Positions 55,985-58,755 of a DNA stretch of 64,000 nucleotides are shown here, in pieces (within the stretch, counting starts at the first letter, position 1; the number at the start of each line of letters is the position of its first letter). The DNA lies in NCBI RefSeq assembly GCF_024585285.1, contig NZ_CP040755.1, forward strand, positions 3,720,001 to 3,784,000. The letters are read 5' to 3'. Position numbers and translations under genes: made by a program. The stretch is from Colwellia sp. M166 (lineage in GTDB: Bacteria; Pseudomonadota; Gammaproteobacteria; Enterobacterales; Alteromonadaceae). A model generated the notes under the pieces. The model did not search any database, had not been told where the DNA came from, and saw nothing but the letters and a program-made list of their open reading frames with translations.

Positions 55985-56947
55985 TTAACTTGACTGTACG
56001 GACGTGATGAGGTCAATTTGCTGCAGAATATCTGCTTTATTTTTTAATAGCTTAATGGCATTAAATAATTGTTCAGCTTGAATGTATTGTAATTTTAAGT
56101 AGCGTAGCCATTGTTTTAAACGGCTTGAGAAGTAGAAACTTTTATTACCATGCAATTCTAATTCACTATAACGCTTTAATAATAAGCTGAGATCAGACCA
56201 AGGCATTGGCGTTTCATCAAATTTAATTACATTGGCTAAATTAGGGAGTGCTAATGCACCTCGACCGAGCATTAAGTTAGTTGTTTTGCTTTGATTTAGG
56301 CAGTTTATTGCATCATTTTTACTCCATATTTCACCATTAGCAAATATTTCAATCTTATGTTTTTGCGTTAATTCAGCGATAAAGTGCCAATAAGCAGGAG
56401 GGCGATAGCCATCGAGTTTGGTACGTGCATGAATGGTTAGTTGACCAGCATTGGCAGATTCAACGGCACTGACAATTTCATTAAGTTTTGATGCATCATT
56501 AAAGCCGAGTCTAATTTTTGCTGATAATATTGTGCTTTCCCCTATGGCCGCTCTGACCCTGGTTAATATCTGATAAATTTTTTCTGGCTCATTCAATAAA
56601 ACAGCGCCACCTTTACTTTTATTAACGGCTTTGGCAGGACAGCCAAAATTCACATCAATGCCATGTGAGCCTAACTCAATTGCTCTGATCGCATTTTCTG
56701 CCATCCAATCGGGCTCTTGGCCGAGTAACTGCATTCTTAATGGCGTGCCATTCTCGGTGTAGCAATGATTGGCGATTTCAGGACAAGTTTTTCTAAACAC
56801 ATGTTTAGGTACTAATGAGTCAACCACCCGAACAAATTCAGTGATGCAAAAGTCATAGCTATTTAATGATGTCAGTAATTGGCGCATTAATTGGTCTGCA
56901 ACACCTTCCATCGGCGCCAGAATGATTTTTTTAACTTGTGGTTTCAT
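55985..56947 (-). CDS. dusC: tRNA-dihydrouridine(16) synthase DusC
   Basis: FMN-dependent reduction of uridine 16 in tRNA. LAPMEGVADQLMRQLL at the N-terminus (the DusC form of the PMAGVT motif), the catalytic Cys103 in DVNFGCPAKAVNKSKGGAVLL, the KIRLGF segment and HARTKLDGYRPPAYW are clear. Length 320 residues. Divergent from the HvfA-like gene, with 164 bp between start codons. Confidence 0.93.
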   Translation of the reverse strand: MKPQVKKIILAPMEGVADQLMRQLLTSLNSYDFCITEFVRVVDSLVPKHVFRKTCPEIANHCYTENGTPLRMQLLGQEPDWMAENAIRAIELGSHGIDVNFGCPAKAVNKSKGGAVLLNEPEKIYQILTRVRAAIGESTILSAKIRLGFNDASKLNEIVSAVESANAGQLTIHARTKLDGYRPPAYWHFIAELTQKHKIEIFANGEIWSKNDAINCLNQSKTTNLMLGRGALALPNLANVIKFDETPMPWSDLSLLLKRYSELELHGNKSFYFSSRLKQWLRYLKLQYIQAEQLFNAIKLLKNKADILQQIDLITSVQSS

Positions 56948-57031
56948 GAAGATAAAGCTAGGCTCAATTATGTTGGAGAAATGAATAATTTCTTTAAATT
57001 AATTTAGAAAAATTTATAGCGCTTGAAATTT

Positions 57032-57059
57032 ATTTACAGCCAATATGGTCTTTGTAAAT
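57032..57059. promoter_or_regulatory. Inverted repeat ATTTACA-N14-TGTAAAT before the HvfA-like gene
   Basis: Perfect 7-bp arms 21 bp apart, just upstream of the likely -10 region (TATACT, 57063-57068) of the gene at 57112 and 85 bp from the dusC start. A repressor or activator site is possible; the regulator is not known. Confidence 0.35.
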
Positions 57060-57111: not shown

Positions 57112-57516
57112 ATGAAATTAATCAAAAAATCTTCAATAGCAGCTTTATTAGGCTTGTTTGCATTAACTGTTGCGGCAACTATGCCTGTAAAAGCCGAAAC
57201 TAATCCATTTGCTGTGCAAAATGTCATGACGATTGTTTCCGCTGATGATCACGAGAAAGGCAAATGTGGTGAAGGTAAATGCGGTGAAAGTAAAATGAAA
57301 GACAAAGCCAAAGGCAAGTGTGGTGAAGGCAAGTGCGGCGAAAGTAAAATGAAAGATAAAGCCAAAGGTAAATGTGGTGAAGGTAAGTGCGGCGAAAGTA
57401 AAATGAAAGGTGAAGCCAAAGGTAAATGTGGTGAAAGTAAAATGAAAGGTGAAGCCAAAGGTAAATGTGGCGAAAGTAAAATGAAAGGTGAAGCCAAAGG
57501 CAAATGTGGTGAATAA
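57112..57516 (+). CDS. HvfA-like secreted Cys-repeat RiPP metallophore precursor
   Basis: A 134-residue protein with a Sec signal (residues 1-28, cleavage after VKA), a short conserved-looking segment ETNPFAVQNVM, and a C-terminal repeat domain (49-134) built from GKCG motifs: nine cysteines at 52, 57, 70, 75, 88, 93, 106, 119 and 132, each as KGKCG or EGKCG. Signal, NPF segment and EGKCG repeats are the hallmarks of HvfA-type precursors, whose cysteines are converted to oxazolone/thioamide groups by an MNIO (DUF692) enzyme with a DUF2063 partner to give copper-binding peptides. No such enzyme gene is nearby: a terminator follows and both neighbours are unrelated. AAAAGGAAAAAG precedes the ATG. 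Confidence 0.85.
   Translation: MKLIKKSSIAALLGLFALTVAATMPVKAETNPFAVQNVMTIVSADDHEKGKCGEGKCGESKMKDKAKGKCGEGKCGESKMKDKAKGKCGEGKCGESKMKGEAKGKCGESKMKGEAKGKCGESKMKGEAKGKCGE
57256..57513 (+). repeat. In-frame tandem repeat array of the HvfA-like gene
   Basis: Three 54-bp units (18 residues, two Cys each), two 39-bp units (13 residues, one Cys each) and a partial unit. The short unit equals the long one minus one EGKCG block, so copy number has changed in steps of whole motifs. Confidence 0.9.
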
Positions 57517-57558
57517 AGTTACCCTCAGTAGCTAAGCGTTCTCATTTGATTGCTATTA

Positions 57559-57588
57559 GAAACCACTTCACTTGAAGTGGTTTTTTAA
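57559..57588 (+). terminator. Rho-independent terminator after the HvfA-like gene
   Basis: AACCACTTC and GAAGTGGTT form a perfect stem around ACTT, followed by TTTTT. It makes the precursor gene monocistronic. Confidence 0.9.
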
Positions 57589-57660
57589 TTCTATAGTTCT
57601 CGTGTTTACATGGTCATTGCTTTAATATTAAGTAATGACCAAATAAAAGGGTTTTTAAAA

Positions 57661-58755
57661 GTGAATTTTAATTACAGCGTAATTGTTTTAATTCTGTTAC
57701 TTTTTTATGTTGTGTCGTGTTCACCTACAGATTACAGCCAAGCAGTAAGTGCTTATGAAGAGGCTCAAAAATCTCAGAAGCTTTCATCATTAACTTTAGC
57801 ATTGAAAAAATTGGCACAGTTAGAGCCAGAAACTTATCAACAGCAATTAGTGAACGCTGAAAATTCGCAGGCGAAATTAATATCCTCACAGCGCGCACTT
57901 GCTACTCATAATTATTACGCCGCTTATCTTGCTAGTCATGATTCTTATCGAAGTTTTCCTAGTTTAGATAGTAAAAAAGTATTGATTGAATCTGGCAGTC
58001 AGTTGTTAATTTTATTAAAAGCCCAAGAAAGTATTGCTCGTTCATATCAATACCGGCAATTAAGGTTAACTTCATTATTTGAACGTTTTTATCAATCAGC
58101 GGTTATTGATTGGGATTTAATTCAAGCGAATAACTTGGTGAGTAAACTCAATCAAAGCACAACTGAATTACATCGCGCTTTTGAGTATATTCAAGACAGT
58201 GGTTTGCAAAATGAAATGCCAGAAGTGCTGTTGTGGGAAAAGGCAATTGCAAGACAATTAACTGAGTTGCAGCAAGTCCGTGATTACTTCCCTGATCTTG
58301 CTCGCCATCGCAGTGCGAAAGTTTTGTTATCGTTGGCTAAATCACTGGCTGATGAAAGTCTAGAGTTGTTATCTCTGGTACGCCCAAGCATGGCTAAAGA
58401 CGCTACACAGCGCTCTTTTATCAAGGCAAAAGATGAATATGCCCTCTATCAGCAGGTAATGGAAAATATATCGTTAGCAGAGAACTCAAGCCGTCAGGAT
58501 ATTCATGCTAGTTGGTACACAGGTTGGGAAAAAACAGTATTAAACGTGCTTGAAGCAGATGAGAGTTTTGCCAATTACCCAGTCAAAGTTAAGCAAAGTA
58601 TCAACAACATCGAACAGGTTATTCGCGATAATAATGCTAAATCACCGCCAAGTATTAAAGACGAATTTTATGATAAAGCGCAGTTCACAAGCCAATTTCC
58701 CAGTATTAATGCACTATTAGCAAAATTAAAGAGAGATAAAGCTCTTTTAATCTAA
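57661..58755 (+). CDS. Hypothetical helical lipoprotein
   Basis: GTG 57661, preceded by AAAGGG, gives MNFNYSVIVLILLLFYVVSC, a lipoprotein signal with the lipobox VVSC; a TTG-led or ATG-led extension upstream (from 57610) would bury the signal and lacks a ribosome binding site. The mature part of about 345 residues is almost wholly helical with TPR-like periodicity (YEEAQKSQKLSSLTLALKKL, ALATHNYYAAYLASHDSY). No known domain recognised. It overlaps the next small gene (TAATG). Confidence 0.75.
   Translation: MNFNYSVIVLILLLFYVVSCSPTDYSQAVSAYEEAQKSQKLSSLTLALKKLAQLEPETYQQQLVNAENSQAKLISSQRALATHNYYAAYLASHDSYRSFPSLDSKKVLIESGSQLLILLKAQESIARSYQYRQLRLTSLFERFYQSAVIDWDLIQANNLVSKLNQSTTELHRAFEYIQDSGLQNEMPEVLLWEKAIARQLTELQQVRDYFPDLARHRSAKVLLSLAKSLADESLELLSLVRPSMAKDATQRSFIKAKDEYALYQQVMENISLAENSSRQDIHASWYTGWEKTVLNVLEADESFANYPVKVKQSINNIEQVIRDNNAKSPPSIKDEFYDKAQFTSQFPSINALLAKLKRDKALLI

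Follow-up and report, generated by a model that had tools for sequence, protein, structure and literature searches.

The window (the whole 64,000-nucleotide stretch of DNA that was analysed) carries a GKCG-repeat gene that, by its sequence, stands alone and belongs to a class distinct from the precursors linked to MNIO genes. We consider it probable that this gene encodes a stand-alone, ECF-controlled, secreted thiol- or metal-binding peptide that needs no MNIO modification. Four points are seen in the sequences themselves: the class is distinct, it occurs independently of MNIO genes, its dN/dS is low where MNIO is lacking, and a promoter motif is shared. We infer that inheritance is vertical, that the peptide is exported, binds metal or oxidants and serves in stress, and that its cysteines stay unmodified.

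The gene, its neighbors, and the MNIO genes of its genome

The gene starts with an ATG and encodes a 134-amino-acid product (Table 1) whose nine cysteines all sit in GKCG. The residue preceding each GKCG, here called position 1, is in order K, E, K, E, K, E, K, K, K, i.e., six lysines and three glutamates. The first-pass annotation had described these motifs, the NPF, and the lysine excess, and the translation confirms all of it. The leader has a lysine near its start, a hydrophobic helix at residues 4 to 23 (in a low-confidence model), and VKA ahead of E29 (placed by eye). Within the gene, a 54-nt unit is repeated 3.4 times and a 39-nt unit 3.4 times. The product scores 71.9 bits against the NF050137 "HvfA family" repeat domain (cutoff, 19.5), as expected for the HvfA-type sequence that had been proposed. 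It falls short of the NF050188 "HvfA" equivalog cutoff of 95 (75.9 bits), as does the MNIO-linked precursor of the same genome (65.2 bits). The predicted structure is disordered, and at a mean pLDDT of 44.9 with 22 sequences the model did not reproduce a beta-helix fold like that of a mid-size relative described in the available text of PMC12452194.

Table 1. Features of the stand-alone gene and its locus, in window coordinates
Feature	Position	Strand	Basis
Stand-alone HvfA-like (class B) gene, 134 aa, nine GKCG cysteines	57112..57516	+	ORF list, translation, profile match
Signal-peptide-like leader, residues 1-28	57112..57195	+	class-wide conservation; cleavage site by eye
NPF, residues 31-33	57202..57210	+	translation
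Repeat region, 18-residue units then 13-residue units	57256..57513	+	DNA repeat analysis
Terminator-like hairpin with T run	57558..57585	+	folding
Dus-family gene, divergent, recurrent neighbor	55985..56947	-	profile match, 221.5 bits
ECF-type promoter TGAAAT-N17-GGTCT	57024..57051	+	inferred from conservation

The gene does stand alone, as the first-pass annotation had it, between the divergent Dus-family gene upstream and a 381-amino-acid ORF downstream, with no MNIO gene and DUF2063 partner beside it. The Dus-family identity of the upstream neighbor is upheld by its profile match, while the more specific name dusC was the annotator's own. The downstream ORF (57610-58755) matched nothing in Pfam or NCBIfam and was detected in 11 of 147 family genomes, the source genome included. 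We rejected it as a partner, since in the same-genus relatives that have it (G007, G053, and G112) it is located away from the class B gene. The hairpin 3' of the stop codon (-24.6 kcal/mol; z, -4.77) agrees with the strong terminator previously reported, although it is absent from the output of a consensus terminator scan. A consensus promoter scan gave no sigma-70-like site ahead of the gene.

The source genome, a single contig of 4.845 Mb, contains two MNIO genes, one in a bufferin cluster at 4.681 Mb and one in an hvfABC cluster at 2.463 Mb, 1.31 Mb from the window gene. HvfB and HvfC of the latter both exceed their profile cutoffs (383.2 bits over 360 and 241.3 over 142). Thus, "orphan" does not equal "no enzyme": the presence of hvfB, hvfC, and a BufB set rules out a simple orphan in a genome without enzyme, and bears out the earlier suggestion that maturation enzymes lie elsewhere in the genome. 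The genes recommended at that stage as search targets (DUF692, DUF2063, DoxX, and further GKCG precursors) are all represented in these two clusters. The bufferin-2 cluster (G000:C1:4681406-4682188; L003 7230-10078) comprises DoxX/HvfX, BufA2 (two matched stretches), BufB, and DUF2063. The hvfABC cluster (G000:C1, about 2.4578-2.4658 Mb; L004 3790-11826) also contains DoxX and redoxin genes and is flanked by two ECF sigma/zf-HC2 pairs.

The precursor in the hvfABC cluster has six EGKCG motifs and is 48% identical to the window gene over 108 columns, with GKCGEGKCGE blocks common to both. An exact scan of the genome for GGNAARTGYGGNGA gave 15 sites, all within these two GKCG genes. A recent duplication of the linked precursor is not supported by the leader tree (short leaders, midpoint root). 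Among six same-genus genomes compared, only the source genome has a linked HvfA, so its hvfABC cluster may be an acquisition.

Two gene classes and their relation to MNIO

Our first sample held 147 family genomes, 110 of them with an NF050137 match, and 27 of the 110 were searched again for HvfA and MNIO (the 6 same-genus genomes of that sample and 21 others, the latter all single-contig except one of two contigs). Six of the 27 selected genomes had no MNIO, five of those being single-contig. We defined class A as the 13 MNIO-linked genes, including the hvfA of the source genome, and class B as 15 unlinked genes, including the window gene, later enlarged by 19 further loci to 34 genes. No MNIO gene lies beside the class B gene in any of the 15 initial loci. 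In the leader tree, which is based on short leaders and midpoint rooted, A is split from B with support of 0.979; the window gene falls in B and the linked hvfA of the same genome in A. A Dus-family homolog accompanies 13 of the first 15 class B loci (with another ORF intervening in L060, and absent near L065 and L067) and lies within 1.5 kb in 16 of the 19 further loci (exceptions, L106, L117, and L129). Besides this gene, no enzyme gene recurs beside class B genes in the loci compared.

The motifs themselves differ between the classes. Position 1 is glutamate in 164 of 164 motifs of the MNIO-linked genes that were read, versus 188 of 348 in the 34 class B genes, where 136 are lysine and 24 are other residues; at least one non-glutamate occurs in 33 of the 34. 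The NPF, which the first-pass annotation took as typical of HvfA-type precursors, does not mark MNIO substrates: all 34 class B genes have it, versus 6 of 13 class A genes. The fewest cysteines in any class B gene is four (L132/L237).

We built a profile from the 15 class B leaders; of 394 family genomes, a subset of a larger collection, 277 matched it. The class B cut was placed at 70 bits, which 88 genomes reached (the lowest with 70.4), and this threshold was set after the gap was visible. Three in-between genomes (65.9 to 67.5 bits) were left out: G054 and G008, without MNIO, and G020, with an MNIO gene about 1 kb away. The 186 weaker matches were handled as class A-like. A PF05114 (MNIO) match was found in 42 of 88 class B genomes, 181 of 186 class A-like genomes, and 78 of 117 with no leader match. 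Put differently, 46 of the 88 class B carriers have no such match, versus 5 of the 186 class A-like genomes; the genomes are related, and a Fisher value on these counts is not a fair probability. Of the 16 same-genus genomes in this sample, all have class B and 7 have MNIO. One class B genome counted as having MNIO, G182, shows a weak two-piece match (best E, 1.2e-19), perhaps from a decaying or divergent gene. Five further MNIO ORFs were scanned and all were of BufB type; four came from class B carriers (G007, G112, G013, and G144; one ORF per genome, with G007 and G112 having others).

Class B genes keep their cysteines with or without MNIO in the genome, averaging 11.5 in 15 genes without it (minimum, 8) and 10.8 in 19 genes with it (minimum, 4). 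Leader residues 1 to 28 have a dN/dS of 0.100 across the 16 same-genus genomes and 0.097 across the 9 that are MNIO-less. Leader dS is below that of the spacer (0.49 versus 1.02), a hint that selection may act in part on the nucleotide sequence, as DNA or RNA. At the level of sequence, then, class B does not depend on MNIO genes. The first-pass annotation had named a genome without MNIO, together with an unmodified peptide, as evidence against its RiPP metallophore precursor; the source genome, with two MNIO genes, is no such case, but 46 of the 88 class carriers are. Of that proposal the HvfA-type sequence stands, while the metallophore is unproven and, given those 46 genomes, unlikely as the retained function of the class.

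A shared promoter motif and a candidate sigma factor

Upstream of the window gene, a -35 box at 57024-57029 and a -10 box at 57047-57051 end 60 nt before the ATG and form the pattern TGAAAT-N17-GGTCT. At 10 or more of 11 positions, this pattern precedes every one of the 15 class B genes and 12 of the 13 in class A; in a shuffle control of these first 28 loci, a mean of 0.7 loci and at most 4 per class reached 9 of 11. Since the motif was first noticed in these initial loci, the 19 held-out class B loci are a fairer test, and all 19 have it at 10 or more of 11 (shuffles: mean, 0.9; at most, 6). The promoter is also present in 25 of 25 named-genome loci from the leader search, whose genomes partly overlap the earlier ones. 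In L065 and L129, the match lies farther upstream, at 128 and 169 nt. The spacing is N17 in 27 of 27 loci, with any other spacing from 12 to 23 in at most 2 of 27 (the linked hvfA of the source genome left out). That linked hvfA, whose best match is 8 of 11, is the single exception among class A, and control therefore probably differs between the source genome's two GKCG genes.

Across 24 genomes, the exact pattern occurs at 107 sites versus 72 for the reversed control, and therefore many matches are due to chance; the source genome has 7 versus 5, and the class B genome G108 has none. We examined the genes downstream of 59 of the 107 exact sites, picked by eye, plus one near-match. Of these 60 sites, 8 lie inside ORFs of at least 100 amino acids and 12 have no nearby ORF, although one of the 12 (L221) precedes a sigma gene. 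Genes that recur downstream by BLAST are TonB-receptor-like (6), thioredoxin-like (5), redoxin (4), MsrA (3, all same-genus), DUF417 (2), and ECF sigma (2); a CutA-like gene (by eye) was seen twice, and DoxX and KatG once each. For one member each, profile scores exceed the cutoffs for KatG (1201.7 over 981), MsrA (144.2 over 108.1), thioredoxin-like (45.5 over 27), redoxin (104.2 over 26), and DoxX (64.2 over 23.6). The DUF417 member scores 63.5 over 27 but only 30.5 against the RclC equivalog (cutoff, 275), and the TonB match of the TonB-receptor-like member is below its cutoff. The TonB-receptor-like gene lies behind the promoter in the five same-genus genomes of the set and in G140; the source genome's copy is L223 (G000:C1:3601123). 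Separately, a 216-amino-acid, exported-looking protein (L099/L224; G000:C1:2274359, minus strand) is encoded 35 nt behind a one-mismatch promoter (TGAAAC); it has no Pfam match and is cupredoxin-like by eye.

The sigma factor of G102 is of the PRK12517 type (295.3 bits over 197). A search of 35 genomes (class B, 29; class A, 6) gave one clear ortholog in every one, so having this sigma factor sets no group apart. The promoter precedes 27 of 30 sigma loci at 10 or more of 11 (without a shuffle control), and the sole class A-genome locus, G055, has 9 of 11. In the source genome, the sigma gene at 1.633 Mb has an exact promoter at 1632957-1632984, and exact sites also precede the window gene, the TonB-like gene, and the DUF417 gene. 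Because the sigma gene carries the same promoter, an autoregulatory pattern, the PRK12517-type sigma factor most likely reads TGAAAT-N17-GGTCT. In 25 of 30 loci (in the source genome, G000:C1:1632957-1633505, L258), 8 nt separate the -10 box from the first Met of the query, which suggests that the sigma mRNA is leaderless or that translation starts later. A DUF3379 gene directly follows the sigma gene, and its product is a possible candidate anti-sigma factor; we found nothing in the open-licence literature on DUF3379 with a sigma and anti-sigma factor.

Modified or unmodified: alternatives and known systems

In the explanation we favor, transcription of the window gene would be driven by TGAAAT-N17-GGTCT, with the PRK12517-type ECF sigma factor as the likeliest reader, and the product, presumably exported by Sec, would work beyond the cytoplasm as a peptide rich in lysine and cysteine. 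Its thiols may bind soft metal, Cu(I) for example, or take up oxidants under oxidative or reactive-chlorine stress, or do both, an activity that would not need MNIO modification. Against this, the source genome has hvfB and hvfC, three of the nine motifs are canonical EGKCG, and the highly conserved leader could still be recognised by some enzyme. A broader version, in which class B peptides are plain, unmodified polypeptides, the oxazolins modified by MNIO form either a parallel or a derived line that shares the promoter, and glutamate at position 1 marks enzyme substrates, strikes us as evenly balanced between right and wrong.

The cysteines might instead be modified in trans, with HvfB and HvfC, encoded 1.31 Mb away, placing 5-thiooxazoles on some or all nine and so producing a second copper-binding oxazolin precursor. 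The same genome does encode hvfA, hvfB, and hvfC, its two precursors share GKCGEGKCGE blocks, and modification from another locus has been suggested for stand-alone precursors in the available text of PMC12452194. We nevertheless think this unlikely, if worth keeping in mind: MNIO is missing from more than half of the class B genomes (46/88), a second HvfA-type locus occurs in none of five same-genus relatives, and the window gene's leader and promoter are unlike those of the hvfABC cluster. The leader bears on this further, as HvfBC favors full-length HvfA and scarcely modifies HvfA without its signal sequence, at less than one modification per molecule (PMC13419390, a preprint available in part). 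Lysine at position 1 had been flagged as a possible recognition problem, and the uniform glutamate of MNIO-linked precursors fits that concern; published variants cut both ways. In the accessible part of PMC13097082, a position-1 Arg double variant went unprocessed by FonBC, with two arginines given as the explanation; other non-Pro variants were processed, E1A and E11A being modified twice and E6A impaired, and lysine is not among the variants named there. HvfB of the source genome and HvfB-type enzymes caught by a protein sequence pattern beside class A genes (9/12) have Arg-Arg-Glu, while five BufB-type enzymes caught by it have Arg-Thr or Arg-Ser. The HvfB arginines resemble, and may be equivalent to, the pair said there to disfavor a positive position 1. 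As for the product itself, the oxazolone/thioamide chemistry of the first-pass annotation is outdated, having since been reassigned to 5-thiooxazole (PMC13419390 and PMC13097082, both available in part).

That a different, unrecognised maturation enzyme reads the conserved leader and modifies the cysteines in all carriers would fit the invariant NPF of the 34 class B genes and the low leader dN/dS that persists in MNIO-less species. Yet only the Dus-family gene recurs as a neighbor in the loci compared, a weak argument that covers neighborhoods only, and we judge such an enzyme improbable. Least credible of all is a low-complexity resemblance or a decaying, functionless copy. The repetitive Lys/Gly/Cys composition and the disordered model (mean pLDDT, 44.9) would allow it, but the repeat-domain score is far above the cutoff, and the recurring locus, promoter, and leader with low dN/dS already contradict it; the first-pass annotation had listed low-complexity resemblance as a potential refutation, and the same evidence speaks against it.

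If the peptides are indeed MNIO independent, the family offers a natural comparison of modified and apparently unmodified forms, in which position 1 and leader class would predict which GKCG proteins are MNIO substrates. The NCBIfam label "oxazolone/thioamide-modified" may then be wrong for class B, and the promoter and sigma factor give something concrete with which to test why GKCG peptides are made. Stand-alone precursors are already in print, while an MNIO-independent GKCG class and the TGAAAT-N17-GGTCT promoter apparently are not; our search of the open-licence literature found neither. KGKCG or GKCGEGKCG appeared there only in the Haemophilus preprint, besides apparently unrelated work.

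How does the window gene compare with known systems? It resembles HvfA/oxazolin and the Buf_EGKCG precursors (fontiphorin and gonophorin) in its signal-like leader, its repeated GKCGEGKCGE, and an NF050137 score over the cutoff. It differs from them in lacking a linked MNIO and DUF2063, in the lysine that opens 6 of its 9 motifs at position 1 (0 of 164 in the MNIO-linked relatives read), and in its separate leader class, its Dus-family neighbor, and the occurrence of its class in MNIO-less genomes. The stand-alone Buf_EGKCG genes of Antoine et al. (PMC12452194) are similar in being single-gene units away from MNIO genes, and in the available text they are suggested to be modified from another locus or not at all. 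That text counts 67 of 2,583 carrier genomes without MNIO, called very few, versus 46 of 88 in our single-family sample, a comparison across profiles that may not collect the same class. BufA2 of the source genome is likewise a Cys-rich precursor whose family is tied to copper in print, but it has other motifs, and its gene is accompanied at 4.681 Mb by an MNIO gene of its own. On the regulatory side, the promoter of Shewanella oneidensis RpoE2-ChrR, given as TGATCC/CGTATT in the accessible part of PMC4336711, differs from the TGAAAT/GGTCT found here; the likeness is ECF control over periplasmic oxidant defence. In Haemophilus influenzae, RpoE2 is tied to msrAB and hypochlorite (PMC7907618, available in part). 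There, a 67-amino-acid anti-sigma gene follows the sigma gene, versus the DUF3379 gene here, and the two sigma factors are likened by description; in both, an ECF sigma factor is tied to methionine sulfoxide reductase.
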